Assembly: GCA_016927595.1 (NCBI GenBank) | Contig: JAFGMI010000019.1 | Location: 62,001 to 126,000 of the forward strand | Direction of reading: 5' to 3' | Source: Melioribacteraceae bacterium | GTDB lineage: Bacteria > Bacteroidota > Ignavibacteria > Ignavibacteriales > Melioribacteraceae | DNA length: 64,000 nt | In this document: piece by piece, positions 7,488 to 25,345 of the stretch | How the letters are laid out: each line of letters begins with the position of its first letter | Position numbering within the stretch: the stretch's first letter is position 1 | The notes under the pieces: model-generated | The model's database searches: none | What the model was told of the DNA's origin: nothing | The model's input: only the letters and a program-made list of their open reading frames with translations | Position numbers and translations under genes: made by a program

Positions 7488-7934
7488 ATGCTTATTTTTA
7501 AGAAAATTGAAAATGTTGATGATTTTGACGATTCGATAACAAGAACCCGGTTTGTGGACTTTTTACACAACCATCTCGATCAATTCGGCGATTCTAAGGA
7601 AGCAATAAATAAATCCATCGATTACGCTTTTAATAACTCTGAAGAGAGCGGCGGATTTCTGCTTGCAGCATTTTACGAAAACAAATTAATCGGTGAACTT
7701 GTAATGAATAAAACCGGTATGTCGGAATATATTCCCGAATATATACTGGTTTATGTCGCTGTAGATGATTCTTTTAGAGGTAAGGGATTCGGACGTCAGA
7801 TTGTGGAAAAAGCTCTCGATTTGGTAGAAGGTGATGTAAAACTCCATGTAGAATACGACAATCCGGCAAAGCGTCTGTACGAACGTATCGGTTTTACTTC
7901 CAAATACGCAGAGATGAGATACAGGAATATCTGA
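7488..7934 (+). CDS. GNAT-family N-acyltransferase
   Basis: The 148-residue cytoplasmic enzyme shows the GNAT acetyl-CoA binding loop SFRGKGFGRQIVEKAL (about 98-113), the R/Q-x-x-G-x-G/A pattern, and the C-terminal NPAKRLYERIGF motif. It should transfer an acyl group, usually acetyl, to an amine; the acceptor is unknown. A GGAG ribosome site 7 bases before the ATG supports the start. The racemase gene begins 5 bases after its stop, which suggests the acceptor is an amino acid or amine handled by that enzyme and by the downstream symporter. Confidence 0.85.
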   Translation: MLIFKKIENVDDFDDSITRTRFVDFLHNHLDQFGDSKEAINKSIDYAFNNSEESGGFLLAAFYENKLIGELVMNKTGMSEYIPEYILVYVAVDDSFRGKGFGRQIVEKALDLVEGDVKLHVEYDNPAKRLYERIGFTSKYAEMRYRNI

Positions 7935-7939
7935 ACATA

Positions 7940-9022
7940 ATGGCAGTTTTAAAGGTAAATACAAACATTATTATCGGAAATATTCGAAAACTAAGCAGTT
8001 ACCTCAATCAGAATAATATTACCTGGTCGCTTGTAACCAAAATATTGAATGGAAACCGTGCAATACTTGAGCGGATACTCCAGGATAATTCAATAAAATC
8101 TACTCACTCGGTTGGCGACTCCAGAATTTCCAATTTAAAACTCATAAAGCAGATCAATCCCGATATTGTTACTATGTATATTAAGCCCCCTGCAGTTAAT
8201 CTTGCAAAAACCATAATCAATTATGTCGACATCTCACTCAATACCAGTTACAGGACAATAAAGGCATTGAACGACGAAGCCGGCAAAGCTGGAAAAAGAC
8301 ACAGAGTTATAGTTATGATTGAACTTGGGGAATTGCGGGAAGGAATATTAAGAGAAAATATTTTATCCTTTTACGAGGAAATATTTAAGTTAAAAAATAT
8401 AGTTGTGGAAGGTATCGGTACAAATCTCGGATGCATGTATGGTGTTGAGCCTACATACGACAAGCTTATTCAATTGAATTTATACAAGATGCTCATCGAA
8501 GCAAAATTTAATAAATCACTTAATCTGGTTTCGGCTGGAAGTTCAATTACACTGCCTCTTATTAATCAGCAGAAAATTCCAGTCGGAGTAAATCATTTCA
8601 GAATAGGTGAAAGCGCATTCATGGGTGTTTCTCCATTCGACAACAAAAAGTTTATGAATCTATCCGGCAATGCTTTCGATTTTTCGGCCGAAGTATTGGA
8701 AGTTGAAAAGAAGGAATATATCCCGGATGGTAACATCGGGGATGCAAGCATCGGGAGCACTGCAAATTTGCAGGATGTTGAAAATAATTCCACCTCTTAT
8801 CGTGCCATCGTTGATTTCGGTGAACTTGATGTGAATGCTGAAAATATTAAACCCAAAGATAAAAATGTAAAATTTTTCGGTACAACCTCGGATATGACTG
8901 TATATGATATAGGAGAAAGGTCAAACAAAATAAAAGTCGGTTCTCAGATTCATTTTAATCCCAATTATATGGCTGTCGCAAGATTAATGAATTCAAAATA
9001 CGTTGCAAAAATTGTCCGGTAA
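7940..9022 (+). CDS. Alanine/ornithine racemase-family PLP enzyme (fold type III)
   Basis: The 360-residue protein is related to ornithine racemase/YhfX-type enzymes rather than to the Alr of cell-wall synthesis. Lys34 in the segment SLVTKIL is the expected Schiff-base lysine. Family landmarks follow: GDSRISNL, YVDISLN, and VMIELGELREGI, which closely resembles the ornithine racemase motif. The barrel domain fills about 1-225 and a C-terminal beta domain the rest. It should interconvert D- and L-forms of an amino acid using PLP. It sits between a GNAT enzyme and a sodium symporter, which suggests uptake and conversion of one substrate. Ornithine, lysine or another diamino acid is possible, but the substrate is inference. 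Confidence 0.82.
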   Translation: MAVLKVNTNIIIGNIRKLSSYLNQNNITWSLVTKILNGNRAILERILQDNSIKSTHSVGDSRISNLKLIKQINPDIVTMYIKPPAVNLAKTIINYVDISLNTSYRTIKALNDEAGKAGKRHRVIVMIELGELREGILRENILSFYEEIFKLKNIVVEGIGTNLGCMYGVEPTYDKLIQLNLYKMLIEAKFNKSLNLVSAGSSITLPLINQQKIPVGVNHFRIGESAFMGVSPFDNKKFMNLSGNAFDFSAEVLEVEKKEYIPDGNIGDASIGSTANLQDVENNSTSYRAIVDFGELDVNAENIKPKDKNVKFFGTTSDMTVYDIGERSNKIKVGSQIHFNPNYMAVARLMNSKYVAKIVR

Positions 9023-9066
9023 TTCCTCTGATTAAAAACTAAATCTATAATAATAATCTATTAAGC

Positions 9067-10497
9067 GTGCATTGGATTGATCTGTCTATATTTGTTATTT
9101 ACATGATTGCAATGCTAAGCATCGGAATCTATTTTCTTAAAAGGAATTCCGACGCAGACGACTACTACGTAGGCGGTAGAAACATGGGCAGTTTTCATAT
9201 TGGATTATCGGTAGTAGCAACCGACGTCGGCGGTGGTTTTTCAATTGGTCTGGGAGGTTTGGGTTTTATTATGGGAATATCAGGCTCGTGGATGCTGTTT
9301 ACCGGCTTGATCGGTGCATGGTTAAGCGCCGTATTCTTAATACCAAAAGTAAGCAGGATGCCGGAATTTAAATCACTTTATACTTTCCCCCAAATATTCG
9401 GGGTGTTTTATGACAGGAAAGTAGCCTTAATTGCCGGCGTAATATCAGCAATCGGATATATAGGATTTACCAGTTCTCAAATACTTGCCGGAGCTAAACT
9501 TGCCTCCGCCTCTTTTATAGATCTTAACTTGAATACAGCTCTTATAATAATGGGTATTATAGTAGTTGTTTATACTTTCCTGGGCGGAATAAGAGCTGTA
9601 ATTTATACAGACACTGTCCAATGGTCAATCTTAATTATCGGATTAATTTTCATCGGTATACCGCTGGGTTATAATGCAGTCGGCGGATATTCCGCAATCT
9701 CGAAAACACTCCCTTCAGATTTTTTCTCTTTAAGCAATCTTGATTGGCAGGACTTTATAAACTGGTTTGTGACTATCGTACCGATTTGGTTTGTCGGGAT
9801 GACGCTTTATCAGCGTATATTCGCATGCAGAACGGAACAGGAAGCTAAAAAAGCATGGTTCATCGCCGGTTTATTCGAGTATCCCGCAATGGCATTTATG
9901 GGTGTTCTTCTCGGTTTATTCGCACGTGCAGCAGCAGAGAATGGTATGTTCGGATATCTCGGTTATTCAAATACAGTTGCTCTTGATCCGGAGATGGGAC
10001 TTCCCATGCTTCTAAGAACTATACTGCCTGTAGGTTTAATGGGCTTGATGATGTCTGCTTATTTTTCTGCAATCATGTCAACTGCAGATAGTTGTCTTAT
10101 GGCGGCATCCGGAAACGTAATGACCGATATACTCGATAAATTTTTTAATATGAGTAATAATCAGAAAAGTCATTTGCGGTATTCACAGGTGCTTACACTT
10201 TTATTAGGATCCTTGTCGTTATTATTAGCCTCATCAATGCAGAATGTTCTAGAGCTGATGCTTTATTCATATGCCTTTATGGTCTCAGGCTTATTCATAC
10301 CCCTTATCGGTGCTTTTTACTGGAAATACAGTAACTCAAATTCTGCTCTATGGGCAATGATTTTAGGCGGAGGTACTACAATAGCACTTATTGCACTGGA
10401 CGCGGATTTACCTCTTCAACTTGATGCAAATATTTACGGTATTGCAATATCGGCTGTTGCATATTTCGGTATCGGATTTTTTCAAAAGATTAACTGA
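9067..10497 (+). CDS. Sodium:solute symporter (SSS family)
   Basis: The 476-residue membrane protein has about 13 helices typical of the SSS (TC 2.A.21) family. Landmarks are DADDYYVGGRNMGSF near the N terminus, the VATDVGGGFSIG segment in helix 1-2, and MSAYFSAIMSTADSCLMAASG around 325-345, which carries sodium-site serines. It should import a small organic solute with sodium. The start is a GTG at 9067, which places the first helix at residues 3-22; the ribosome site is weak. The gap to the racemase gene is 44 bases, so co-transcription is likely. Proline/amino-acid, sugar and acid transporters all fall in this family; the context favours an amino acid. Confidence 0.9.
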   Translation: MHWIDLSIFVIYMIAMLSIGIYFLKRNSDADDYYVGGRNMGSFHIGLSVVATDVGGGFSIGLGGLGFIMGISGSWMLFTGLIGAWLSAVFLIPKVSRMPEFKSLYTFPQIFGVFYDRKVALIAGVISAIGYIGFTSSQILAGAKLASASFIDLNLNTALIIMGIIVVVYTFLGGIRAVIYTDTVQWSILIIGLIFIGIPLGYNAVGGYSAISKTLPSDFFSLSNLDWQDFINWFVTIVPIWFVGMTLYQRIFACRTEQEAKKAWFIAGLFEYPAMAFMGVLLGLFARAAAENGMFGYLGYSNTVALDPEMGLPMLLRTILPVGLMGLMMSAYFSAIMSTADSCLMAASGNVMTDILDKFFNMSNNQKSHLRYSQVLTLLLGSLSLLLASSMQNVLELMLYSYAFMVSGLFIPLIGAFYWKYSNSNSALWAMILGGGTTIALIALDADLPLQLDANIYGIAISAVAYFGIGFFQKIN

Positions 10498-10642
10498 AAT
10501 TTCTATTTAAACAATCCTTATCACGATTAATTTGCATAGTAATAATTATCTTTGTGACGCTTATATTACGTACCACAAAAATGTGAATAATTTTTACCAG
10601 TGATATTATCATTGAAAGAAGTTAGTTTTGAACTGGATAAAT

Positions 10643-13450
10643 ATGAGAAACCGCTCAAATATAACTGCAATTTTATTAATAATTATATCTCTTGGTGTTT
10701 CAATCAACGGACAACAATTTGAAACTTCACTAACACTCATCAACAGAGATGTAAATAATAAAATTATTTCTGAAAGTCAGTCTGTACTTCAGAAGATTTA
10801 TTCAGTATTCGATAAAAGCCGGATTAATAAAAAATATTTTTCCACGAAGAAGGAAAAATGCGCCACACATATAATCAATGAATATTTGAACATCAGACCA
10901 GCACTTCCATCTTCATTAACATCTGAAATTGATTCCATGATCTATAATAATAAAATCTCACTTTCTCTCGATCAGATATATACTTCGCCTTCGGGTATTT
11001 TCGATTTACATTATACACTTGAAGGCGACAATGCGGTTATTCCCGATGACGACAACGCAAATGGTATTCCCGATTACGTTGAAAGAGTAGCTGAGTATTT
11101 TGATCACACATGGAGCATAACAATCGATTCACTTGGATACACCGCCCCTAAATTGGATAACGGAAAATTCAACATTGAATTCTTGAAGACTGACTATTAC
11201 GGCTATACATTACTTACACAGCCTAAAATAATTATGAATAGTACATTCAGGGATTTTCCACCGAATGACGACCCGGAAGGAGATATACTCGGAGCTGCAA
11301 AGGTGACTGCCGCACACGAGTTCAAACACGCAACTCAATTTGCTTATATCACGAGATTCGAGAGCACCTGGTTTATGGAAGTTGACGCAACGTGGATGGA
11401 AGAAATAATATATGATCAGGTTAACGACTACTACAACTACATGAGCGATTCTCAAATTATTAATCCTGCACGCCCGCTGCCTCTAAGCAATGGTTACAGT
11501 GATTCCATTTTTATGCATTTTCTGACACAAAAATTCGGCAACGGATTTAACGCTGACTTTTGGAATTTGAGAGATAATGTTCCGATCAGTGATGTTTTCC
11601 CTGATCTCGATTATATCTTAAGTTTATACGGTAGTTCGCTCGATGTGATTATACCCGAATATTTTTCATGGAATTATTTCTGCGGGAATAAGTTTGTACC
11701 CGGGGCGCTTACTTACGAAGAAGCAAAATTTTATCCTGATCCGAATATCTGCACAGTACTTGAATTTTATCCGGCAGAGTTTGACGGTTGCGAAATTAAT
11801 TACTATGGTGCAAATTATATAGAATACTACCCTGGTGATAATAACGATTTATTCAGTTATGAATTTAACGGTGCCGGCGCTAATTTCTCTGTAAACAACA
11901 TAGTAATAAGTGATTCTACAGTTTATTACGAAAAAACATTCAAACCGGCTACAGGTGAAAACAAGTTCATTTTACCCAGGATTTCAATTGAAGCGCCTAA
12001 GATAGTTGTTATTCCGGTAGTTAATTCACGTAGTGATGTTGAGTATAATTACAGCATATCCTTCAGACCACAGTTGTATGTAAATTTTATTCATACACCT
12101 CTCAAAGATACAGAACAATTGAAATATATATATGTTGGTTTAGAGATTGACAACGAATACGATATTAATCTTAAAGAGGCACCGATATTTTATTTCAGTA
12201 CAGACAGTGTAATATTCAGACAACAGCTTATGCTGGAGGACAAACAAAATTATTATACAGTAGTTCCTCTTGATACCAGCGAAGTAAGAATTTATTATTA
12301 TTTCAGTATTGAAGATTATAATGACAATATGCTGTATTATCCGTCCGGTGCACCGGATTATACGTTTTCATTCTTTGCAGGATCCGACAAAATACCTCCG
12401 GTCATTACTCCATTAACAAATATCGAGGACATCTCCGGGGCTGGTCTTCCCCTGGATATCATAGCAAAGGTCACAGATAACTTAGGGGCTGATTCAGGTG
12501 AGATAGAATACTTTGTCAATTTCAGATCATCGCAAACAAGAAGGATGATCCGCATAAATGATTCACTTTTTATTGCTACTATAGATTCAGCGGATTTAAG
12601 TATTCAAACCGGTGATATATTTGGCTACAGAATTTCAGCAAAGGATAAATCGTTGAACGGAAACAGGAGCTACTTCCCTGCCGATGACTATTACTATCAT
12701 ACGATTGTGAATGCTTATCGATTTAATTCTGAACCCTTCCTCTTAATTCCGCAAAATTCAGAAATCGTTGATTCAATTTATATTCATAAGGAAATAGTAA
12801 TAGATGACATTGATATAGTCTTTGAATCAGATAATCTTGCTTTGAATAAGACCGATATTCTTATAACTACTCCGGAAGGTACCTGCTATAATCTGATATT
12901 GAGCAGCAACAGCAATTCTGAATCAATATATTATGATAAAATAAGATTCAACGATGATGCGGTTTATAGTTTTTCCGGGACGGAATATTCAGATCTTAAA
13001 GAGTATGTGAGTTCCTTCAAACCGTATGATGTTGATTACAATGAATTAGTAAATGGAAATGCATTCGGGTGCTGGCGCATATCGGTTAAAAATTACGCCG
13101 GTAATGAAAACAGCATACTTAAAAATTGGACAATAATATTAAGAGGAACATATCTAACCTCTGAAAATAACGAAGCTCAAATGAAATTTTCTTACATGCT
13201 ATACGATAATTATCCCAATCCTTTCAATCCGACGACAAATATTACTTACGAGCTGAAGACGAGTGTACATATTAATCTAAGCGTGTTTAATGTACTCGGT
13301 GAATTAGTGGCAGTTCTTGACTCTGGTTATAAAAAACCGGGTAAACACAGTGTCATTTTTAACGCCGCCGGGCTTCAGTCGGGGGTATACTTTTATAAAC
13401 TTGTTGCAGGTGAGTATTCCGTCACCAAGAAATTAATTCTTCTCAAATAG
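10643..13450 (+). CDS. Secreted MXAN_6640-like metalloprotease with P domain and type IX sorting tail
   Basis: A signal peptide (about 1-24, ending near SING) leads a 935-residue exported protein. A zinc-protease motif HEFKH (HExxH) lies at 225-229, followed by a Glu-rich MEVDATWMEE segment that can supply the third ligand. Beta-sandwich domains follow. A proprotein-convertase-like P domain covers about 700-865, with a characteristic GCWRISVKN...NWTI ending. The last 80 residues are a Por/type IX secretion sorting domain starting at NYPNPFNPTTN. It is therefore expected on the cell surface or outside the cell. An in-frame TTG at 10628 is an alternative start; the ATG at 10643 is preferred for the start codon itself. 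It overlaps the convergent permease gene by 8 bases. Confidence 0.85.
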   Translation: MRNRSNITAILLIIISLGVSINGQQFETSLTLINRDVNNKIISESQSVLQKIYSVFDKSRINKKYFSTKKEKCATHIINEYLNIRPALPSSLTSEIDSMIYNNKISLSLDQIYTSPSGIFDLHYTLEGDNAVIPDDDNANGIPDYVERVAEYFDHTWSITIDSLGYTAPKLDNGKFNIEFLKTDYYGYTLLTQPKIIMNSTFRDFPPNDDPEGDILGAAKVTAAHEFKHATQFAYITRFESTWFMEVDATWMEEIIYDQVNDYYNYMSDSQIINPARPLPLSNGYSDSIFMHFLTQKFGNGFNADFWNLRDNVPISDVFPDLDYILSLYGSSLDVIIPEYFSWNYFCGNKFVPGALTYEEAKFYPDPNICTVLEFYPAEFDGCEINYYGANYIEYYPGDNNDLFSYEFNGAGANFSVNNIVISDSTVYYEKTFKPATGENKFILPRISIEAPKIVVIPVVNSRSDVEYNYSISFRPQLYVNFIHTPLKDTEQLKYIYVGLEIDNEYDINLKEAPIFYFSTDSVIFRQQLMLEDKQNYYTVVPLDTSEVRIYYYFSIEDYNDNMLYYPSGAPDYTFSFFAGSDKIPPVITPLTNIEDISGAGLPLDIIAKVTDNLGADSGEIEYFVNFRSSQTRRMIRINDSLFIATIDSADLSIQTGDIFGYRISAKDKSLNGNRSYFPADDYYYHTIVNAYRFNSEPFLLIPQNSEIVDSIYIHKEIVIDDIDIVFESDNLALNKTDILITTPEGTCYNLILSSNSNSESIYYDKIRFNDDAVYSFSGTEYSDLKEYVSSFKPYDVDYNELVNGNAFGCWRISVKNYAGNENSILKNWTIILRGTYLTSENNEAQMKFSYMLYDNYPNPFNPTTNITYELKTSVHINLSVFNVLGELVAVLDSGYKKPGKHSVIFNAAGLQSGVYFYKLVAGEYSVTKKLILLK

Positions 13451-14801
13451 TCTGTTCGTACGTATATCCTTTATCTTTGCGCCTTTTGAAATATATATAA
13501 AAAGGTAAACCTGTTCCGATTAAAAAAACACAAGCAAGAGTTCCACCCAAAGGAAATGCCAGGAAGGTCCCGTAAGCCAGATACAGTTGTACAAGCACCG
13601 ATACTGAAGCCATAATAAACCATAACGGAGATCTGTAAGCGGGTTTGTACTCATTTTTTCTTCTCAACGAAAACACTGATAAGTAAACGAGTGTATTCTG
13701 CAGCACATATGATAAAGTGAAATAACCTAAAAGATCCCCCAGGTCACCTATTAAGAGTATTATTCCGAAGGCAGCCTGAATGATGATAGAATAATCAGGG
13801 GTTAAATAACGCGGGTGAAGGTGACCGAACAGTTTAAAAAATAATCCGTCACGCGCCATAGCATACTCCAGCCTCGGTTGTGTAATAACCGAAGAGTTCA
13901 TTACCCCGAGCATTGAAACGAATACAGCAATTGCAAATAATCCGCCTGCAACATCGGCAGAAAACGGGATGAATTGAAACGGATTAATAAATTTTCCTTC
14001 TTCAACACTGATAAGTTCATTAAAAGGTACAATAGCGCTCGTGCATAAACTAATAAGAACATAAGCAGTCATTACAAATATTACTGAACCAATTAGACTT
14101 TTAGGAAGTATTTTACGAGGTTCTTTAACTTCACCTGACGTATAAAGTATATTCAGAAAGCCGGCATATGCCCATACAGTAGCTGAGATTCCTGCAGTTA
14201 CAACCGCTAAAGTAACCGGTTGACCGTTTATGCCGGTGAAAAAAGATTCCGTGGCAAGGTTACCTGAATTTAAAAAGAATGCTCCGATTATAACTACAGC
14301 AAGCAGCGGTGAAAGCTTCGCGATGGTCAGGGCTACCTGTACATTGCTGCCTGCTTTAACCGATCTGTACTGTATTGTAGAGAAAATGATGATTAAAAAC
14401 GCCGCAAATACTTTTGCATAAATTGATAATCCCAGTGCGGGGAAAAAATATGACAGTGCATCAGCAGCAAGCAGTCCTATTATTGTCAGCGTCGGTGTAT
14501 CACTTGTTAGAAAAGCAGTCCAGGTATATATAAAAGCGAAAAAGGGTGAACCTGCTTTATAGATAAAGTGATAAGGTCCACCCTGGTCAGGGTATGCAGT
14601 ACCCATCTCAGCAAGAATTAATATCTGAGGCAGCCAGATTAATCCTCCGATGAACCATATAAACACGCCAACAAGCGGATTGCCAGCTATCGAGGCAACA
14701 ATGGGAACATTGATAAAAATTCCCGATCCAATCACCTGACCAATGATAATAGCAGAAGTCTGAAGCAGATTTAACTGTCTTTTAGGTTTTAAGACGGACA
14801 T
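13443..14801 (-). CDS. APC-superfamily amino acid permease
   Basis: The 452-residue protein has about 12 membrane helices. The first, IIIGQVIGSGIFI, carries the GxGIF-type substrate-binding break of the APC superfamily; VWAYAGFLNILYTSGEVKEPRKILPKS is the helix-6/loop signature. It should exchange or import amino acids. The frame extends to 14837, but the ATG at 14801 overlaps the stop of the upstream DUF1460 gene as TGATG, the normal form of translational coupling, so I use it. As the last gene of a murein-degrading operon it probably takes up amino acids freed from peptidoglycan stem peptides. Confidence 0.88.
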   Translation of the reverse strand: MSVLKPKRQLNLLQTSAIIIGQVIGSGIFINVPIVASIAGNPLVGVFIWFIGGLIWLPQILILAEMGTAYPDQGGPYHFIYKAGSPFFAFIYTWTAFLTSDTPTLTIIGLLAADALSYFFPALGLSIYAKVFAAFLIIIFSTIQYRSVKAGSNVQVALTIAKLSPLLAVVIIGAFFLNSGNLATESFFTGINGQPVTLAVVTAGISATVWAYAGFLNILYTSGEVKEPRKILPKSLIGSVIFVMTAYVLISLCTSAIVPFNELISVEEGKFINPFQFIPFSADVAGGLFAIAVFVSMLGVMNSSVITQPRLEYAMARDGLFFKLFGHLHPRYLTPDYSIIIQAAFGIILLIGDLGDLLGYFTLSYVLQNTLVYLSVFSLRRKNEYKPAYRSPLWFIMASVSVLVQLYLAYGTFLAFPLGGTLACVFLIGTGLPFYIYFKRRKDKGYTYEQTI

Positions 14802-15682
14802 CAGTGCGTGGAATTTTTCATTTCGTGTATATCCCACGGTAGTATAATATTTCCGTTCGTATTTAGTTCAGCTCTAACACGCATAACTGAAACGCCGAGA
14901 TATTTTTCTGATCCTAAATATTTATCAATCCACTTGTCGATCGGAGTGTCGAAAACTGTCATTCTGCTCATGGCTGACTCTCTGATAAATCCATTGCCAG
15001 AATTCTCGTAGTACATTAACATATGAGCTGAGAAAATATTATCAAGCTTTGCAAAGAGTAAAGATAATATATCACCGTTCTTTAAGTTATTCTTCTTAAC
15101 CTCAAGGATTTCAAAAGGAATATAATCGATTGTAATTGTCCTGTCAGCTTTAACGTATCTTAAATCTGTAATGCCTTTATTTTCAAAAAATGTTTTGTGT
15201 GATATTTTCCTTGTAATTTTTTTTATTCCAGGTCCTCCGACATCGTAAGAAACGTCTTTCAGAAGCCAGTTATTTTCGGGCAGCCAGTCGGCTAAGGTAT
15301 AGTGGTTCCGCGTGCGCATACCTATTATCCCGTTTTTATACCTTATCTGCTGAAGGTTGTTAAAAAAATTATCCCAGGAATCTGAGATGGAAAGTGCAAG
15401 TACGTGCTCACAATATACCATGCAGTTGGTCTCATTAAAATTTACCAGAGGCTCGGTTTCATAAAGTGCGTAAGGACCTTCTCCGGCACACGTTAGATTG
15501 TATGGCATATCAAGGAAAAGTTCCGAATAAAATTTCATTCTATCTGTTATCGTTAAATTCTGTCGAGATACCTCAGAAAGCAAAGAATCGATCTGATGAT
15601 TGGTGAATTCAGAAATCTTCGCTCTATCCTGGGAAAATGATATTGATGTATATAAAATAAATATTATGAATAATTTAATCAT
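14801..15682 (-). CDS. DUF1460 family N-acetylmuramoyl-L-alanine amidase-like protein
   Basis: The 293-residue protein has a signal peptide (about 1-17). It matches the DUF1460 family, whose studied members have an NlpC/P60-type fold and cut the N-acetylmuramoyl-L-alanine bond of murein fragments. The likely catalytic Cys87 lies in NCMVYCEH and the partner His in TRNHYTLADWLPEN (about 124-137). It should act in the periplasm. It sits 10 bases after dacB and overlaps the permease gene by one base, so its product is probably used together with both. The family assignment is firm; the bond it cuts here is inferred. Confidence 0.8.
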   Translation of the reverse strand: MIKLFIIFILYTSISFSQDRAKISEFTNHQIDSLLSEVSRQNLTITDRMKFYSELFLDMPYNLTCAGEGPYALYETEPLVNFNETNCMVYCEHVLALSISDSWDNFFNNLQQIRYKNGIIGMRTRNHYTLADWLPENNWLLKDVSYDVGGPGIKKITRKISHKTFFENKGITDLRYVKADRTITIDYIPFEILEVKKNNLKNGDILSLLFAKLDNIFSAHMLMYYENSGNGFIRESAMSRMTVFDTPIDKWIDKYLGSEKYLGVSVMRVRAELNTNGNIILPWDIHEMKNSTH

Positions 15683-15692
15683 TACATCCTCT

Positions 15693-17162
15693 TTATTTTA
15701 GATTAGCCAGTTCGATCATAATTTCCTGATGAGCTTTTGTGACGTTATAAGCGCTGCCGCTAAAATTGTTTGCTATCATCGAGAAAACAATTTTTTTCCC
15801 ATTCTTATCGTTAAGATAACCCGAATAACTTCTTACTCCCTGGATGACTCCCGATTTAATCCGGGCGTTCTTTGCAATTGCCGTTCCCAATCCTGTATTA
15901 CTGAAATATCCTATATCATCAGGATCCCCAACAAGTGCAAGGGAATTATAAAAACTTTCAAACCATTTTTTCTTCATAATCTCCGTCAGGAATTCAACCA
16001 TTATTTTAGTGCTTATGCAGTTAGCTCTTGATAACCCGGAACCATCGTATAAATTAAGTGCTTCCGTATTTATTCCCAGCGATTTAACAAATTCCTCAAC
16101 TACTTTTACTCCTGTTACAGTTGAACCCGTACCTTTAATTTTAAGAGCAATCATCTTCAACAGAAGTTCGGCATATAAGTTACTACTTCGTTTATTCAAT
16201 ATATATATAATACTCTTCAACGGCGGAGATTCAATCGAGACAATTTTTACTGCACCAGCATAGTCTTGTTTATGGTTTACCATTCCCGGTTTATTCGATA
16301 CCTCGATTTCATTCTGCATAAGTTTATTTTGTAAAGACTGAGCAAAGAACAAAGGCGGATCCGGTATTGAGCCTTTGATTGGAAATTCATTCTTACCTTT
16401 GGGTACAGTACCGCGCAGAATTGCATTGTAGGTAAGTGGAGCGCAGTAAATATAACCGTTATCCCCGGAGCCTTCCCTGCCTGTTTTCATATAATTCGTA
16501 AATACTAATCCGGGAATTACAGGTTCTGTTTTGATTACTTCAGCAATATCTCCTACTTTTTGTGCAGGTTTGAAATACAGGTAATATAAATTATCATTTA
16601 TAGTCAATGCGGAACTTGATGCGCCGTAATAATTTCCTATATCGATATATTCCCAGTTATTTGGTATTGGCAGCTCATCAAATAAAGAATTGTCAGCAAT
16701 AACAGAACCGGCAATCTTACTTATTCCGGTTGCTTTTACAGCATTTACAATTCTATTTAATACTTCATCATACCTGAGTGCCCCTTCAACCATATACGAA
16801 CCGAGACTCGGATCACCCGATCCGACTAAATATATGTCACCATTTAAGTTACCTGAATTATCGATTATACCTTTATAGAAAACATCCGTAGAGTATTGAA
16901 AATCTTCACCGAGAATCTCCAACGCAGTACCGGATGTAAGTACTTTAAGTCCTGAAGCTGGTGCAAGAGATTGATCTGAGTTATAATCGAGTATAAATTT
17001 ATCGTCATCAGCATATTTTGCATAAATGCTCCATTGTGCATTCCTGAATGTCTTGGACTGAGCATGATTTTCGACCAGTTTATCCAGTACTGATAAATCC
17101 TGGGCGTCCGATGCAGCGTTAAATATAATAAAGAATAATAACAGAAAAGACTTTTTTCCCAT
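15693..17162 (-). CDS. dacB: D-alanyl-D-alanine carboxypeptidase/endopeptidase (peptidase S13)
   Basis: This 489-residue penicillin-binding protein has a signal peptide (about 1-20). The catalytic SxxK motif is S70-G-L-K73 in APASGLKVLTSG. The S13-type insertion domain lies between it and the SxN-like motif in DGSGLSRANCIS (about 370). A KSG near the C terminus replaces the usual KTG box, a known conservative change. It removes the terminal D-Ala or cuts D-Ala-mDAP cross-links in the periplasm. The gene lies 8 bases after the amidase lipoprotein gene and 10 bases before the DUF1460 gene. Confidence 0.93.
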   Translation of the reverse strand: MGKKSFLLLFFIIFNAASDAQDLSVLDKLVENHAQSKTFRNAQWSIYAKYADDDKFILDYNSDQSLAPASGLKVLTSGTALEILGEDFQYSTDVFYKGIIDNSGNLNGDIYLVGSGDPSLGSYMVEGALRYDEVLNRIVNAVKATGISKIAGSVIADNSLFDELPIPNNWEYIDIGNYYGASSSALTINDNLYYLYFKPAQKVGDIAEVIKTEPVIPGLVFTNYMKTGREGSGDNGYIYCAPLTYNAILRGTVPKGKNEFPIKGSIPDPPLFFAQSLQNKLMQNEIEVSNKPGMVNHKQDYAGAVKIVSIESPPLKSIIYILNKRSSNLYAELLLKMIALKIKGTGSTVTGVKVVEEFVKSLGINTEALNLYDGSGLSRANCISTKIMVEFLTEIMKKKWFESFYNSLALVGDPDDIGYFSNTGLGTAIAKNARIKSGVIQGVRSYSGYLNDKNGKKIVFSMIANNFSGSAYNVTKAHQEIMIELANLK

Positions 17163-17170
17163 GATTGATC

Positions 17171-20149
17171 CTAACGTATTTTCAAATATTCAAGTATTGA
17201 TTTCATCACCAAATCTCTGTCATTGTTACCGAGTATTATTTCAAACGGAAATCCGAATGCAACAATTCCGTACTCGTTTTTATAGCCGACCGCGCTCCCG
17301 TATAAATTTTCTGAATATCTAAGCAGAACCTCGCTGTCCTTTGTATTTGTAATGGCATCAGGAGCCTCGGCTGCATATATTGAGTCATTAAGTTCAGTAT
17401 TGAATTTGAAACTGAACCCTTCCGGAAGAAAAACTGAATTAGCCGATTCCACATTGCCTTCTACAACTGCATGATTACTGCTGAGTTTGTATTTGAGAAC
17501 ATTCATTACAAACTCAATATCAGGATCATCTTTCTTACGACCATAAAACATATCAGTTCCAATGTACGATCCTGAAACGAAAATATTACCCCCACCCGAT
17601 AAATAGTCGGTAATACGGGATTTCATTGAATCGTTAAATGTCTTGAACTGTTTACCCACGAGCGAGTCGGTATAAGACTTAATCCATCCTGTTTCCTTTT
17701 CCTCACCAAAAATCAAATCAATAAATTTATAATCATTTAAGGGCACAGTTTTATTTTCCACAGTTTCATCACTTACGGTAACAAATGATAATCCATTTGC
17801 CATAAGGCTTTCACCGTGTGTATAACCAAAATCAAATGTATTACCCGCAATAATTTTATTTTCATAATTAGCATAACTTGCGCCGTGTCCCGGGATATCA
17901 TCAGTTCTCCATGTGTGAGACGGATCGAAGTCGTGCTGTCTGCCTGTATAACTGATATCATATTTATCCGGGACTCCCATATCAAAGAAATCAAGAAATC
18001 CTGTAAACTTTTCCGTCTCGATTGAGGCTGGTCCGCAAATCCTGTCGAAGGCGTTAATTACGAGTGCAGTCGTTGTTGAATTTTTCTTTAAACCGACAGA
18101 CACTATCTCCGAGGGAAAACTTTCTCCACCGTCATTAACTGCAGTTACCTTAAAATTGTAAATTTGATCAACCTTTAAATTTTCGATTGTTGCAGAATTA
18201 TCTGTTACATATAAACCATTATCGAATCCGTATTTTCCAATACTCTTATAAATTATGTAACCCGTTGGAACTGCAGTGGACTCAAGTGAGTCTGTCTGAG
18301 GCATCCAGGAAATAGTAACTGAATTGTCTTTATTAATTCTTGAATTCATGTGTGTTACCGGCAGCGGCTGTACTACCGGATCGAACCTGTTATTATAAGC
18401 TATGTATTTCAGAAAAGCTTTGTAAATAGATCTTGAGGCGTCGAAACGGAATCGCGGATCGAGCTGAAATTTACTGTCAAGAAAATTTTGATGTGATAAA
18501 AGTTCCAGAAGTACCGACGGTACATTCGGTCTTACGGCTTCGCTGTATCTTCCGTCGAAGAGCTGACGACGGTTCCAGACAGGATCATATTTATACCGAA
18601 GATCATTAACCAATTGTGTCTGAAGCATATCAGCAAGATCACGGTTCGCCAGCCGCGATACTCCGTCGGGGAAAAAATAACTGGAATCATCATCAGTAAC
18701 ACTGTAAATAGATAACGTCCCTACCGTCGTATCGTTGTGAGTAATACCGGCATCGGTATGAAACGCAAGGGATAAATCAATAGGAATACCAAGCCCTCTT
18801 GTTCTGTCCTTGTTCGGACCGTATGGATTGCCAACAAGGTAATTTACCCATTCGCCTCTGCTTTGATAATCATCTGCGTAATCGGTACTATCATTGTTAA
18901 TGTTATAAATCAAAGTGTCCGGCATCCCGGCAAACTGTAAATAATAACGGGCACCTTCTATGTATTTGGCTCTGCCGCTGGTTTTGCCTCCGCGTTTTAC
19001 TACACCCATACCACCTCCGAACCGTACCGCGTCGACTGAAATAGTTTTACCTGGAGTATTACTCTCATTAACTGCAGAAACTCTGCCGATATTCTGATTT
19101 GTTCCTTTTGCAAATTTAAAAGTACCGAGGTAATGCCAGGTCGATCCACCCATTGTCTGATCAACAGAGAATTCGGTTTTGCCTCCTGTATGGTAAACAA
19201 TAAAACGCGCATCATCGGTATTCTGATCCGATGCTACATACGAAACATACACTGCGTAGTTGCCGGTCGTCGGTATTTCGGGAATAAATTCAACGCTTGC
19301 ACTTGAATCATGATTTGTTTCTGCGATCCGGTGAGTTCCGTATTCAAACGGATTATAGTTGGCTTCATATGGCGGACTTCCTAAAAGGAATGCATTTCCC
19401 TTTCCCGTTTTCCATTGCCCGTTCTCAAGATACGACTTACTCCCGATAACATCATTATCTATTATTATTTCATTTACCTGCACGTCTCTTTCCCTGGGGA
19501 TATATACATTCGCTCCTGCGTTCTCCAACATCGGAACCAGATATGGAAGAACGTACGAAATTGGACCAATATCCTCTACCATCTGAAATAATCTTGCCCG
19601 CTGCCATAACCATCTGTCAAGATCGTGATTATAATACCATCCGTGACTATGCCAGAGCGCTATGTTTCTGTCATTCAAACCCTTTGTGGTTTCATATACA
19701 GTACTAAGATTTTTAACAACTTGTTTACCCGCCGCATAATTAAGAGGTATTCTAGATTTATCAATATCAAAATATTTTCTATAAAAATTGGGGACTAATT
19801 CTTCTATGGGAAATGATATTGATTTGATGGTGAGATCAAAGTCAGCATAATAAGGGTATAAGAACTGCCTGACTTCATTATATATTTCAGATATATCAGA
19901 TTCCCTGAAGAATCGATAAGAAAACTGCTTGTTTGTTTCAACAACAATTTCTTTTTTTATGGAATCAATTTTTATCGCAGTTACTTTTGAACCTCCGGGA
20001 ATAAAGAAATTGAAGTTTCTGTTCTCGAAGTCCTCATACAGATTATTTATTTTTGTTTCAAGTGCCGGTACATCTTCCTCAGTTGTCAGCAGAGAAGAAC
20101 AGCCGTAAAGAAACAGCGCTGCAAATGAAATAATAACTATTTTTTTCAT
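17171..20149 (-). CDS. Lipoprotein N-acetylmuramoyl-L-alanine amidase-like protein with golvesin-like and fibronectin III domains
   Basis: A lipobox ending at Cys17 (LYGCSS) anchors this 992-residue protein to a membrane. An amidase_3-like fold is split by an insertion. The first part (about 155-225) has WHSHGWYYN and LFQMVEDIG, whose His and Glu could bind zinc. A golvesin/xanthan-lyase-type beta domain follows (about 225-380). The amidase part then resumes with AFHTDAG (about 462) and LLELLSHQNF (about 550). A fibronectin III domain (about 600-690) and an unassigned C-terminal domain (about 695-990) follow. Similar proteins in Bacteroidota are often labelled xanthan lyase; the metal-site motifs point to an amidase. 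It is the first gene of the murein operon. Confidence 0.75.
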   Translation of the reverse strand: MKKIVIISFAALFLYGCSSLLTTEEDVPALETKINNLYEDFENRNFNFFIPGGSKVTAIKIDSIKKEIVVETNKQFSYRFFRESDISEIYNEVRQFLYPYYADFDLTIKSISFPIEELVPNFYRKYFDIDKSRIPLNYAAGKQVVKNLSTVYETTKGLNDRNIALWHSHGWYYNHDLDRWLWQRARLFQMVEDIGPISYVLPYLVPMLENAGANVYIPRERDVQVNEIIIDNDVIGSKSYLENGQWKTGKGNAFLLGSPPYEANYNPFEYGTHRIAETNHDSSASVEFIPEIPTTGNYAVYVSYVASDQNTDDARFIVYHTGGKTEFSVDQTMGGSTWHYLGTFKFAKGTNQNIGRVSAVNESNTPGKTISVDAVRFGGGMGVVKRGGKTSGRAKYIEGARYYLQFAGMPDTLIYNINNDSTDYADDYQSRGEWVNYLVGNPYGPNKDRTRGLGIPIDLSLAFHTDAGITHNDTTVGTLSIYSVTDDDSSYFFPDGVSRLANRDLADMLQTQLVNDLRYKYDPVWNRRQLFDGRYSEAVRPNVPSVLLELLSHQNFLDSKFQLDPRFRFDASRSIYKAFLKYIAYNNRFDPVVQPLPVTHMNSRINKDNSVTISWMPQTDSLESTAVPTGYIIYKSIGKYGFDNGLYVTDNSATIENLKVDQIYNFKVTAVNDGGESFPSEIVSVGLKKNSTTTALVINAFDRICGPASIETEKFTGFLDFFDMGVPDKYDISYTGRQHDFDPSHTWRTDDIPGHGASYANYENKIIAGNTFDFGYTHGESLMANGLSFVTVSDETVENKTVPLNDYKFIDLIFGEEKETGWIKSYTDSLVGKQFKTFNDSMKSRITDYLSGGGNIFVSGSYIGTDMFYGRKKDDPDIEFVMNVLKYKLSSNHAVVEGNVESANSVFLPEGFSFKFNTELNDSIYAAEAPDAITNTKDSEVLLRYSENLYGSAVGYKNEYGIVAFGFPFEIILGNNDRDLVMKSILEYLKIR

Positions 20150-20305
20150 ACGATGTTCTCAAAAATAATTAAATAGATACAACTTAAAAGAGACAATTTT
20201 AGTATTACTATTATAGTTATAATTTTAATAAAGAATTTTTTATGATAGGTTTAAATACTAAAAAAGACCCGATAATTTATGCTAAATCAAATACTAAAAA
20301 TCTCA
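20150..20305. other. Intergenic region between two minus-strand operons
   Basis: This AT-rich 156-base gap should hold the end of the signalling operon transcript and the promoter of the murein operon. I see no GC-rich terminator hairpin. The 12-mer AAATACTAAAAA occurs twice (about 20255 and 20290), probably by low complexity. Confidence 0.4.
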
Positions 20306-22873
20306 TCAACATTTTTTCATCAGTAAAAATGTAATATCGTCATTTTGAGGAACATCTTTCTTGTGAAATTCAAGATCACCTATTAATGTGTTAAGTATTT
20401 CAAAGCATTTCGAATTGATATTCTTCTGAAAAATGTATAATAGTCTGTCCATGCCGAAAAATTCGTTTTTGGAGTTCATCAGTTCAGTTACACCATCTGA
20501 GAAAAGCACGTACAATGTGTTATCTTCTATCGGGATCAGTATCTCCTCAATTGTTGCGTTAAATAATTCCCCTTTTTCAAGACCTATTCCTATTCCTTTC
20601 GGTGAATATTCCTTAGTTTCGTTACTGCCTATAGCCACAAGAGGAGTATGCCCTGCTCTTGCGAGCAGAATTGTATTCTGATTAATATCAAACAAAGCAA
20701 CCGATACAGTAATGAACCAGCTCCTGTCTATAGATCCGAAAATTTTTGAGTTAATCTCAGACAATATCTCTTTTGGCGAACGACTTCCGTCGCAATACAA
20801 CTGCATCATTGTCTGAAGCTTCGACATATAAAAAGAAGCAGATAATCCCTTACCGGACACGTCACCTATCACGGCGAAAAGTTTATCTTCACTCACTTTT
20901 ATAAGATCGTAATAATCACCGCCAACGTGCATTGCGGGTATCATAATCCCGCATACATCAAAGCCTTCGAAAGAAGGAAAATCTGACGGGAGCAGACTGT
21001 TCTGTATCAGTCTTGCATTTTCAAGGTCTCTGTCGAGTTTAAGTTTTTCAGACTCCGATTCGTAAAGTCTTGCATTTTCGATTGCAATTGCAGTCTGATT
21101 CGCAGCAATCGAAAGCAGTTCGAGATCTTTGCCCGCGAATTTCGAGCCGGAGTGTTTTAATCCGAACAGCATAAAACCTATTATTTTGGATTGGATAATA
21201 AGCGGAAGTACAGTGAATATTTTTTCGTCAACCAGTTTTTGAGAACTTTCAGGAAAAATATCTTTGAAATCCGATTCATCAATTATAAGTAATGAACCTG
21301 AATCTTTTTTTGAAAGTATAAATTGAGCCAGATTTACAATATTTACATTCAGCATAAACGGATTTTCGTAAAAACCTATGCCTTCAGCTAACCGGTATGA
21401 ATTTGTGCCAGATTTATTTTTAAGCATAATTCCGAATCTATCTACCTGTAGTGCCTCAACCAAAGTGTTACAAGTTGACTTTATTATATTTTCCAGACCA
21501 ACAATCGTAACAACATCGTTACTGAACTGATGAAGCATTTTTTGATAAGCGAACTGTTCAGGATAAAATTTCCTCGTAATAACTTCCTGAAACTTTTCTT
21601 TTGTCGATTGAAATACGAGGGCAAAAATTATGAATAATATTCCAGCTATAATTCCCTGATACTGTGTACCAATTGCACTGCTTATCGACTGTCCTACTAC
21701 ATAAATGAGAAGGAAGTATATTGAAGCGATCGATAAAGTTGCAGCCCCATAAAGAATTGTGTTTTTAACAACATCAGTTACATCCATCAATGAATAACGG
21801 AAGATCGAAAAACCGAAGGCGATGGGCAGAAGTGCGGTTAGAACTACCGGAAATAACAGTTCGGGCGAATTATAAAATTCTGCCCGCGATAGTGAACTGT
21901 AAATAATAACTGTATACGCATAAGTCAAAATTACAATAACGTATGAAATCAGGATTATAAAAATTGCAGTACGTTCATTCTTGGTCTGAATTCTTAAATA
22001 ATTCATGAACAATGATACAAGTCCGATAATCAGGCTGATAGAAATTAATCCGTTTACAAAGCGGGCATACCATTGTATAAAAATATCTAGCAGGTATTGA
22101 TTATCATAGAGATAGATGATTTTAAATAACGTAACAATAATAAAGATAATAGATGGTGTTATGTATAATACCTTAGTGGTGAACTTACGGTCGATTATCG
22201 AAAACTTTCTTGGGAAAATCCAAAAGAAGTGCACCATCAGAAATGGTATGAATATACCTCCGAATGATTGCATTATATCGAAGGCGACAGCAATAAATGT
22301 ATAATCAAAAACCGGATTAAAAATGTTCTGAGAGTCAAGGATATTGAAGCAGGTAAAGAGAACAAATGCGGTGCCTATCCGGAAGAAAAGAATCTGTGTG
22401 TAACCGTCGGGCTTTGCGCTGATAACCATTATAGATACCAGCAACCAGATCGCACCGAAGATTGTATAGGCTAATCCCCCCATCTGTATTAACTTTTTTA
22501 CTTCTACTTCGGCATCGAATGTTCTTCCTTCTCTATTCACTCTGTAAATAGCTGTATCGCCCGGTTCCAGGTTAAACAGAATAGCGTTAGCATCAAGCGA
22601 ATTTTCAATTTTATGACCATTTATTTCAAGTAGCTGATCACCATCTCTGATTCCACCCTTCCAGGTCACTCCTTCGAATTTCACCTCTTCAAAGAATAAT
22701 GCCAGTTCACCTTCAGGCGTGTAACGCGGAATCCAAAGACATTCATCATTTGGCTGTGGTGTAATTGTGAAAATAAAATAAAGCTGAACTGCGACCAGCA
22801 TAAACAGAATTGCGGAGACAGGCCAGAGGAGCCTCTTTCTATATTTTGTGATCAAATCGCGCAGGGTATTCAT
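20306..22873 (-). CDS. PDZ - multi-helix membrane - GAF - SpoIIE-type PP2C phosphatase
   Basis: The 855-residue sensor phosphatase begins with a membrane helix (about 16-36), then an extracytoplasmic PDZ-like domain (about 40-128, with GIRDGDQLLEINGH), about nine further helices (136-420), a GAF domain (about 465-610), a short coiled linker and a C-terminal SpoIIE/PP2C domain (about 655-855). PP2C metal motifs are visible: GDVSGKGLSA, FSDGVTELMN and NDDITFLLM. The expected job is to dephosphorylate a STAS protein when the PDZ or GAF part senses a signal. It is the last gene of the sigma/partner-switching operon and starts directly after the stop of the previous gene. Confidence 0.85.
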   Translation of the reverse strand: MNTLRDLITKYRKRLLWPVSAILFMLVAVQLYFIFTITPQPNDECLWIPRYTPEGELALFFEEVKFEGVTWKGGIRDGDQLLEINGHKIENSLDANAILFNLEPGDTAIYRVNREGRTFDAEVEVKKLIQMGGLAYTIFGAIWLLVSIMVISAKPDGYTQILFFRIGTAFVLFTCFNILDSQNIFNPVFDYTFIAVAFDIMQSFGGIFIPFLMVHFFWIFPRKFSIIDRKFTTKVLYITPSIIFIIVTLFKIIYLYDNQYLLDIFIQWYARFVNGLISISLIIGLVSLFMNYLRIQTKNERTAIFIILISYVIVILTYAYTVIIYSSLSRAEFYNSPELLFPVVLTALLPIAFGFSIFRYSLMDVTDVVKNTILYGAATLSIASIYFLLIYVVGQSISSAIGTQYQGIIAGILFIIFALVFQSTKEKFQEVITRKFYPEQFAYQKMLHQFSNDVVTIVGLENIIKSTCNTLVEALQVDRFGIMLKNKSGTNSYRLAEGIGFYENPFMLNVNIVNLAQFILSKKDSGSLLIIDESDFKDIFPESSQKLVDEKIFTVLPLIIQSKIIGFMLFGLKHSGSKFAGKDLELLSIAANQTAIAIENARLYESESEKLKLDRDLENARLIQNSLLPSDFPSFEGFDVCGIMIPAMHVGGDYYDLIKVSEDKLFAVIGDVSGKGLSASFYMSKLQTMMQLYCDGSRSPKEILSEINSKIFGSIDRSWFITVSVALFDINQNTILLARAGHTPLVAIGSNETKEYSPKGIGIGLEKGELFNATIEEILIPIEDNTLYVLFSDGVTELMNSKNEFFGMDRLLYIFQKNINSKCFEILNTLIGDLEFHKKDVPQNDDITFLLMKKC

Positions 22874-24553: not shown

Positions 24554-24560
24554 TTTAAGA

Positions 24561-24989
24561 CTAGCTTCGAAATTTAACTAACACTACCTGATTACGATTG
24601 CCGGTGAGGTTTGTATAAGTAACACTATCCATTAATTTTTTCATCAGGAACATACCAAGACCTCCGCCCTTTCTTTCTTTTTGAAGCTTTAACAGATCGG
24701 GTTCGGGGACTAAATTCGGATTGAAATGCCCACCATCGTCAACTATTTTAACAGATATCTTTTCGTTATCAACAGTTATATGAATTGTAATATTGCCATT
24801 AGGGGAATACTTGTAAGCATGTTTGATTATGTTAGTACATGCTTCATCAACTGCGAGGGTTACTTTTCTTACATCCACTTCGCTTAATCCTGCAGCGCTG
24901 GTTGTCTCTTTTACAAAATCTCTAACCAGTGAGAGATTTTCAGTAGTACTTTTGACAACCAGTTTTTTATTTGACTTTTTGGTTGTCAA
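24561..24989 (-). CDS. RsbW/SpoIIAB-like anti-sigma serine kinase
   Basis: The 142-residue GHKL ATPase has the N box DEACTNIIKHAY (Glu49), the G1 box VDDGGHFN and the G2 box GGGLGMFLMK (about 108-117). Proteins of this type bind a sigma factor or other effector and phosphorylate a STAS antagonist. It starts with TTG at 24989, and its start overlaps the STAS stop by four bases (TTGA), the coupling typical of STAS-kinase pairs. Which sigma factor or effector it holds is unknown; the sigma factor of this operon is an ECF type, whereas classical RsbW binds group 3 sigma factors. Confidence 0.9.
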   Translation of the reverse strand: MTTKKSNKKLVVKSTTENLSLVRDFVKETTSAAGLSEVDVRKVTLAVDEACTNIIKHAYKYSPNGNITIHITVDNEKISVKIVDDGGHFNPNLVPEPDLLKLQKERKGGGLGMFLMKKLMDSVTYTNLTGNRNQVVLVKFRS

Positions 24990-25345
24990 GATCTCTCTGT
25001 CTGATTGAATTTGTTTACAGCTTCGGTTTCGTCTTTAAAGAACTCATAAAGGACTGGGAATCCCAGCAAGTCGAATATATTAAATACATCGTTCTGCATG
25101 TTCGAGAATTTAATATCACCGCTATTTTCGCGCATTGTTTCTACATAAGCCATAAATACCCCCAAACCGGCACTGCTTATGTATTTCAATTCGTCGAAGT
25201 TCACAACAACTTTGTAGTTATGCGAATCGATGAGTTTATTAAATTCCCTCTCCAAATCCGGTGCAGTATGTGCGTCTAAATATCCTTTAAGATCAATGAT
25301 CTTAATTGACCCAACCTCTCGAGTCGATACGTTAAAATCTGCCAT
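24986..25345 (-). CDS. STAS-domain anti-anti-sigma factor
   Basis: This 119-residue single STAS domain resembles SpoIIAA/RsbV. The conserved switch loop YISSAGLG (55-62) carries the phosphorylatable serine (Ser57 or Ser58). When dephosphorylated it should bind the RsbW-like kinase and free that kinase's partner. The ATG at 25345 overlaps the stop of the upstream phosphatase gene as TGATG, with GGAG 7 bases before it; an in-frame TTG one codon earlier is less likely. The gene sits between a phosphatase and the kinase, the usual order for a partner-switching cassette. Confidence 0.93.
   Translation of the reverse strand: MADFNVSTREVGSIKIIDLKGYLDAHTAPDLEREFNKLIDSHNYKVVVNFDELKYISSAGLGVFMAYVETMRENSGDIKFSNMQNDVFNIFDLLGFPVLYEFFKDETEAVNKFNQTERS

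Follow-up and report, generated by a model that had tools for sequence, protein, structure and literature searches.

What does a bacterium do with three predicted murein-cutting envelope enzymes whose genes are followed directly by that of an amino acid-type permease? The question is raised by a four-gene run in a Melioribacteraceae bacterium (assembly GCA_016927595.1, contig JAFGMI010000019.1), of which we analysed positions 62,001 to 126,000 of the forward strand; this whole stretch of 64,000 nucleotides is referred to as the window. The run encodes an Amidase_3-fold lipoprotein, the carboxypeptidase/endopeptidase DacB, a member of the DUF1460 family and an APC-type permease (Table 1), and an initial annotation of the same DNA had read it as a murein scavenging operon in which stem peptides are cut off stepwise and the products imported. 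Our answer, which we hold with moderate confidence, is that it forms an envelope operon that dismantles murein fragments. Within this answer, there is good support for murein degradation as what the three hydrolases are predicted to do, and co-function of the hydrolases with the permease, judged from their linkage, is likely, whilst the substrate is probably murein outside or shed from the cell, at least as much as the products of the cell's own turnover.

Conserved linkage and anatomy of the run

The window protein belongs to a divergent DUF1460 type, here called type A (described below), and when genome contigs were scanned once with an alignment of type-A sequences, 45 loci (L numbers) emerged, 11 of them from genomes named Ignavibacteria/Melioribacteraceae, Chlorobiota or Bacteroidetes (Ignavibacteriota-type loci). 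In eight of these 11 a permease ortholog (70–83 % identity) lies directly after DUF1460, and DacB lies before it. The order amidase, DacB, DUF1460, permease is found in L197, L198, L199, L202 and L219, and in L210 with the amidase cut by the contig end; L205 exhibits the same order with two inserted genes bearing tails of the type IX secretion system (T9SS), one each between lipoprotein and DacB and between DacB and DUF1460, and in L203 a DacB gene cut by the contig end is followed by DUF1460 and permease, the contig stopping before any lipoprotein position. The lipoprotein gene precedes that of DacB in seven of the eight permease-linked loci (cut in L210). The run is absent from L200, L201 and L206; a permease-like protein near DUF1460 in L200 was rejected as an ortholog (26 % identity, 697-aa protein). 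Two of the type-A loci come from genomes that were met twice (L198 = G058; L205 = G438, G numbers denoting genomes), and L229 shows no DUF1460 open reading frame (ORF) in its gene map, its neighbours lying outside the mapped set.

The surroundings of 106 DUF1460 genes of canonical or type-B kind served as controls, 81 of these stretches extending 4 kb or more to either side. At E <= 1e-10 they hold no relatives of the lipoprotein, DacB or the permease, and weak partial lipoprotein matches occur in two, L123 (49 bits) and L136 (40 bits). Linkage in 8/11 versus 0/106 gives a Fisher p of 2e-10, with shared descent not corrected for. The survey across Ignavibacteria reveals conserved linkage, with DacB and permease beside type-A DUF1460 in 8 of 11 other loci, and the premise of the initial annotation that the first three genes act on murein is strengthened as a prediction: three envelope proteins of murein-hydrolase families are conserved as a unit. 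The permease itself is rare, with matches at E <= 1e-60 in only 7 of 395 phylum genomes (57 % identity or more), four of which carry it beside type-A DUF1460; in G469, a DUF1460 gene cut by the contig end is followed by the permease.

In the window, all four ORFs, their family identities and their arrangement as close neighbours, here on the minus strand, agree with the initial annotation. The gaps of 8 bases (lipoprotein/DacB) and 10 bases (DacB/DUF1460) were likewise confirmed, and the third spacing, -37 bases as called, was found to be an effect of the ORF caller. Homologs of the permease start at residues 13–16 of the window protein, with alignments running from about the junction ATG, and the DNA at the junction (...CACTGATGTCC...) displays a TGATG in which the DUF1460 stop overlaps a permease ATG at 14801. 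Because homologs begin there or nearby, and because of the TGATG at the junction, we place the start at 14801: the true permease is most likely the 452-aa protein, whose start codon shares one base with the stop codon of DUF1460. The nearest gene upstream of the run stops 156 bases before the lipoprotein gene. Scans for promoter-like sites (50 versus 38.7, standard deviation 6.3, in shuffles) and terminator-like sites (8 versus 6.8) were uninformative, with no minus-strand promoter-like site found by scanning 20150–20305, upstream of the run.

Table 1. Genes of the four-gene run and flanking genes discussed in the text (window positions)
Feature	Position	Strand	Basis or remark
Amidase_3-fold lipoprotein, 992 aa	17171..20149	-	predicted structure and alignment
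DacB/PBP4-type D-Ala-D-Ala carboxypeptidase/endopeptidase, 489 aa	15693..17162	-	TIGR00666, Pfam S13, motifs
Type-A DUF1460 (PF07313) protein, NlpC/P60 amidase family, 293 aa	14801..15682	-	Pfam, predicted structure, tree
APC-type permease, 452 aa (464 aa as called, 14837-13443)	13443..14801	-	AA_permease_2, start-codon evidence
MXAN_6640-type putative metalloprotease, 940 aa, T9SS tail	10628..13450	+	convergent flank, outside operon
Amidohydro_3 protein, 531 aa	5611..7206	+	flanking gene

The predicted hydrolases

The first gene of the run encodes a lipoprotein with, by eye, the lipobox LYGC and Cys17, a residue kept in 28 of 31 aligned sequences. An AlphaFold2 model built from this 31-sequence alignment (predicted local distance difference test score 88, predicted template modelling score 0.90) exhibits an Amidase_3 fold at about residues 155–592, identified by matches to Amidase_3 structures: amongst these are CwlD from C. 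difficile (7rag_B; Z 19.7, root-mean-square deviation 2.8, 192 residues) and AmiA from E. coli (8c2o; Z 18.2). Fifteen of the top 16 structural matches are amidases of the Amidase_3 kind (Z 16.5–19.7), including the endolysin PlyPSA and, at rank 4, YrvJ, which we take to be an amidase. The sole non-amidase, 6f2p, is the C-terminus of a Paenibacillus xanthan lyase and matches a golvesin-like domain (residues about 222–381; Z 18.9) that is inserted within the Amidase_3 domain. The amidase is followed by an fn3 domain (about 598–684) and a ThuA/glutaminase-like C-terminal domain (about 690–992). Of the 31 aligned sequences, 30 retain H169 and E192 (one gap) and all retain H464 and E549; by analogy to Amidase_3 enzymes these residues are presumably the zinc ligands His, Glu and His and the catalytic Glu. 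The amidase-like nature claimed earlier for this lipoprotein is thus supported by both fold and conserved residues. The protein shares the catalytic fold and these presumed residues with E. coli AmiA and C. difficile CwlD, but differs from Amidase_3 enzymes in that E192 and H464 stand 272 residues apart around the golvesin-like domain, and in its fn3 and C-terminal domains. Pfam detects only Golvesin_C and fn3, neither Pfam nor NCBIfam returns an amidase model and PF01520 (Amidase_3) is not listed at E <= 0.001, the domain being split by the long insert: it is probably owing to the inserted golvesin-like domain that these libraries miss the amidase.

DacB matches TIGR00666 with 259 bits (cut-off 107.8) and Pfam Peptidase_S13 at 2.4e-87, exhibits the motifs SGLK at residue 70, SSN at 326 and KSG at 436 (corresponding to SxxK, SxN and K[ST]G) and carries an N-terminal signal sequence as judged by eye.

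DUF1460 enzymes are amidases of small muropeptides, and those of the AmiA subfamily hydrolyse peptides of N-acetylglucosamine-anhydro-N-acetylmuramic acid (GlcNAc-anhMurNAc) between MurNAc and L-Ala; enzyme assays of AmiA from B. uniformis were reportedly performed by Xu et al. in 2014. The window protein matches PF07313 with 90.4 bits (gathering cut-off 27) and has, by eye, an N-terminal signal sequence. PF07313 is found in 109 of 159 genomes of the class, with most matches at about 130–190 bits as against 91 for that of the window. In a quick tree of 148 rows, canonical DUF1460 proteins (95 rows) are set apart from two divergent clades, A, which holds the window protein, and B, with a Shimodaira–Hasegawa approximate likelihood ratio (SH-aLRT) of 100; 45 of 46 rows labelled type A form one clade (SH-aLRT 99), and the 46th, the second DUF1460 of L228, groups with B. 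The B. uniformis enzyme was not among the rows of this tree and was placed through bit scores to its structure 4h4j, which are 161 and 146 for the canonical proteins L053 and L061, 34.5 for the window protein and 28 for one type-B protein; scores to Legionella LPG0564 (2im9) are, by contrast, 58.8 for the window protein, 60.2 for the type-B protein and 37 and 30 for the two canonical ones.

The predicted model of the window DUF1460 adopts an NlpC/P60-type fold, with Z 24.8 to 2im9 (245 residues, 23 % identity) and Z 20.2 to 4h4j over 214 residues. LPG0564 is thereby its best match in both structure and sequence; we know of no test of the function of LPG0564. All of 37 type-A sequences compared share C87, H220, R234 and E235. 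A Cys-His-His triad is stated for the DUF1460 structure 4Q5K in a published survey (PMC10318531), and the third position in the window protein is either Glu235 (MAFFT) or Arg234 (phmmer against 4h4j), and His in neither case; both residues sit on a strand at residues 230–237 of the model. By the likelier alignment, type A would have an altered triad, Cys-His-Glu. Compared with B. uniformis AmiA (BACUNI_02947; 4h4j, 4q5k, 4q68), type A shares Pfam family, fold and catalytic Cys and His, but lacks the third His, is closer in sequence to 2im9 and is linked to DacB and a permease. An assignment of the window protein as a plain AmiA was rejected on account of its separate clade, its low score to 4h4j and the missing third His: as far as sequence comparison goes, type A is a separate clade outside the AmiA subfamily (BACUNI_02947 type).

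Substrate, uptake and competing explanations

Taken together as an envelope operon, the four proteins would share the work. The Amidase_3 lipoprotein with its carbohydrate-binding-like insert would release stem peptides from glycan, DacB would cleave cross-links between D-Ala and meso-diaminopimelate and trim D-Ala, and type-A DUF1460 would strip peptides off small soluble muropeptides; the permease would import an amino acid liberated en route, with D-Ala or a diamino acid as first candidates, and sugars may enter via an AmpG-like/GH3/AnmK/MurQ set that is encoded elsewhere in the genome. The cargo of APC transporters consists of amino acids and amino acid derivatives rather than peptides. 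The permease matches AA_permease_2 at 2e-48 (165.9 bits, gathering cut-off 27); the best NCBIfam model is that of the fructoselysine transporter FrlA, and with 352.9 bits the protein falls far below the equivalog cut-off of 800.

That murein outside the cell is the starting material is suggested because genes for a PorV-family protein and a T9SS-secreted amidase head the run in some relatives. Six relatives have DNA in view ahead of the lipoprotein gene (L197, L198, L199, L202, L205, read as L180, and L219): in three of them (L197, L198, L199) a T9SS-tailed Amidase_2 protein with Big_5 domains is encoded 15–18 bases before the lipoprotein gene, and a PorV-family gene precedes the run in all but L219 (the family was assigned on the L198 gene and extended to the others by clustering), without the T9SS amidase in L202 and the genome of L205. 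An identification of this 339-aa upstream gene as a dipeptide epimerase was rejected in favour of the PorV family.

Further afield, about 7 kb at most separates a lipoprotein homolog from type-A DUF1460 in L207, L209, L213, L215 and L217, four Fidelibacterota and one unplaced genome (L209). In L204 a gene for a T9SS Amidase_3 protein, for which Amidase_2 was considered and rejected, stands 27 bases before type-A DUF1460, and in L214 an M23 peptidase gene follows it; L227 and L228 show the tail part alone of an L204-type secreted protein. As a separate observation, L207, L209, L215 and L217 encode, on the strand of the amidase, a patatin-Omp85-like protein (a label read by Pfam on the L204 cluster member), its gene standing between those of the amidase lipoprotein and type-A DUF1460. 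L228 (DFBT01000067.1, about 1–20885, from candidate division WOR-3 bacterium UBA3073) is a murein-catabolism-like locus of 16 ORFs: its 21 kb hold a Big_5/T9SS tail piece, GHL10, both type-B and type-A DUF1460, an SSF symporter, NamZ, GNAT, a NagK-like kinase (below cut-off), Amidase_3 and PBP4, along with an enzyme whose best model is L-Ala-D/L-Glu epimerase, below the cut-off of that model. The gene adjoining type-A DUF1460 in L228 was rejected as DacB, being NamZ; PBP4 lies at 16229–17689. By its gene content, this one contig is the most direct tie of type-A DUF1460 to murein catabolism. A broader proposal can be made from these loci, one that we regard as tentative and rather doubtful: that they represent a surface murein-utilisation locus in which T9SS and lipoprotein amidases strip foreign walls, a DUF1460 of changed triad cuts peptides from the soluble fragments so produced and a dedicated APC permease takes up one of the stem amino acids as food. 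Marked by type-A DUF1460, such a locus would occur in varying forms across Ignavibacteriota, Fidelibacterota and WOR-3.

Several observations weigh against the dismantling of murein fragments by all four proteins together. Three of the seven genomes with a permease ortholog (G359, G013, G153) have it outside such an operon, and by clustering, with many short contigs, none was found in the other 34 type-A loci; POT peptide transporters encoded elsewhere in the genome (three POT-like loci) could carry peptides instead. Counting the own genome, 39 of the 395 phylum genomes hold homologs of the lipoprotein above 500 bits, and in 19 of 20 neighbourhoods examined (own and G058 uncounted) they are found away from DacB, DUF1460 and permease; because its homologs are mostly unlinked to these genes, the lipoprotein appears to work without them as well. 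The T9SS amidase at the head of the run is absent in L202, L205 and L219. Since this absence is joined by the lack of Amidase_2 in the genome of the organism itself, the scavenging reading is weaker for this organism.

Of the competing explanations, the one that survives best is possible, if on balance rather improbable: that the permease is a passenger for an amino acid or derivative unrelated to murein, such as the substrate or product of the Amidohydro_3 protein, with the hydrolases alone as the unit. Orthologs adjoin an Amidohydro_3 gene in L251 and PAP2 in L250, and one is close to AbgT in L252, all short stretches without DUF1460 or DacB. The Amidohydro_3 gene beside the ortholog, recorded for G013, has relatives in the vicinity of the operon in the window and in L198, L199 and L203; the Amidohydro_3 protein is a possible functional partner of the permease. 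The distant kinship to FrlA also fits such a passenger. Against it stand the position of the permease directly after type-A DUF1460, seen in G469 and in eight of the 11 other loci of Ignavibacteriota type, the one-base overlap with DUF1460 in the window, and the fact that four of only seven permease-bearing phylum genomes carry it beside type-A DUF1460.

A second explanation, which we consider unlikely, is recycling of the cell's own wall only: the operon would have replaced AmiA-type DUF1460 in the periplasmic removal of peptide from GlcNAc-anhMurNAc-peptide and would feed the AmpG-like/GH3/AnmK/MurQ route, with nothing scavenged. In all nine operon genomes examined the type-A protein of the operon is the single DUF1460 (by score and place, some assemblies being incomplete), with no canonical one; three genomes with the permease ortholog alone carry canonical DUF1460, and the per-genome search found no DUF1460 in G469, where the gene is truncated. 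The genome of the organism itself (G000) encodes a 617-aa AmpG-like MFS protein (matches at C22:147061-148794) adjoined by a GH3 domain (C22:149017-149973, in a 958-aa frame), as well as AnmK and MurQ (372 bits); the GH3 protein may be called NagZ-type, a label taken from its AmpG-like neighbour and not from a NagZ-specific model. As an observation in its own right, the two matched halves of this MFS protein are separated by a long insert, and the MFS and GH3 pair also occurs in G058, G066 and G073. For the comparison of nine operon genomes with 18 others, the partial cases G430 and G469 were set aside; G485 is apparently the same genome as G430. AnmK is present in 8/9 operon genomes versus 5/18 others (descent not corrected for), MurQ over cut-off in 8/9 versus 12/18, G430 and G469 being positive for both and left out, and no Mpl over cut-off was found in 29 genomes searched; the four sub-cut-off Mpl matches of the own genome sit together on C54, like a Mur ligase cluster. 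Recycling alone is opposed by the T9SS-secreted Amidase_2 in the same run of some relatives, by the NamZ and secreted proteins that the WOR-3 contig adds, and by G004 and G045 with both DUF1460 kinds. In these two genomes (L034, L036) the type-A gene lies on a short contig, unlinked to the operon.

The same genes bear on the initial claim of a route different from that of AmpG and AmpD, which holds in part. In its favour, no Amidase_2 (the AmpD family) was found in the own genome at E <= 1e-5 (completeness 99.79), nor an Mpl over cut-off; to its detriment, the AmpG-like MFS, GH3, AnmK and MurQ are present. In the survey of relatives, AmpG over the NCBIfam cut-off is found in 0/30 genomes and 2/14 controls. 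The claim is favoured by a full-length AmpG-like match (at least 120 bits, frame of about 420–515 aa) in only 1/9 operon genomes (G483) versus 12/18 others; against it, the own and five other operon genomes have the longer AmpG-like MFS protein of 617–626 aa, and Amidase_2 occurs in 8/9 operon genomes, with the own as the exception, and a small one (204–256 aa frame) in 6/9, by which a general loss of AmpD where the operon is present is rejected.

The weakest explanation, division or envelope remodelling in which amidase, DacB and DUF1460 split septa or remodel the wall with incidental products, is quite improbable given that DUF1460 enzymes are small-muropeptide amidases and that secreted amidases, a permease and, in L228, genes of sugar catabolism are found in linkage. 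In its support, AmiA/B/C split septa in E. coli (PMC6403190), and the lipoprotein homolog is widespread and mostly unlinked.

Setting the favoured dismantling of murein fragments beside known systems reveals likeness and difference. The genome shares with the AmpG/NagZ/AmpD recycling of E. coli an AmpG-like MFS beside GH3, AnmK and MurQ, but has no Amidase_2 and no Mpl over cut-off, and peptide removal would occur outside the cytoplasm. In Bacillus subtilis, the NamZ-NagZ-AmiE genes are arranged as a wall-sugar scavenging operon. As in the window, an extracytoplasmic amidase, further hydrolases and an importer are brought together there, and NamZ is also found in L228; the window operon, however, has no NamZ, NagZ or sugar importer and exhibits an amino acid-type permease instead. 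NagZ and AmiE of this scavenging system are covered in PMC6987092, which also describes Rhodothermus marinus as being without AmpG and AmpD. A further system is that of Tannerella forsythia, for which strong periplasmic amidase activity has been inferred: according to PMC7670621, peptides seem to be removed in the periplasm and disaccharides enter by AmpG. There the sugar is the prize, whereas the window operon has an amino acid-type permease and its sugar genes lie elsewhere. Extracytoplasmic peptide removal is thus not new in the wider group (PMC7670621, PMC6987092). On the operon itself, no literature was found in titles and the starts of abstracts, with poor coverage of subscription papers, and the accessible part of PMC11129491 holds nothing on it.

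Flanking genes and biological meaning

The gene for the MXAN_6640-type metalloprotease also lies beside the operon in L198, L199 and L203. Between this gene and that of the Amidohydro_3 protein, window positions 7488–10497 (plus strand) encode in a row a GNAT acetyltransferase, an ornithine-racemase-like protein (260 bits to the Orr model, cut-off 480) and an SSF symporter. Immediately ahead of the operon, at 20306–25348 (minus strand), two PP2C-type phosphatase-like proteins with sensor domains are followed by small HATPase-like and STAS-like proteins, by eye an Rsb-type partner-switching set; the mapped relatives carry other genes at this place.

In sediments, the walls of dead bacteria offer a large supply of nitrogen, and to our knowledge the feeding of uncultured Ignavibacteriota and Fidelibacterota has mostly been guessed at. 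As standard models miss the amidase lipoprotein, of which homologs above 500 bits are present in 39 of 395 genomes, the number of amidases in this phylum may be underestimated. With type-A DUF1460 as a marker and a compact operon to look for, murein feeding would become testable in the genomes of these uncultured groups.

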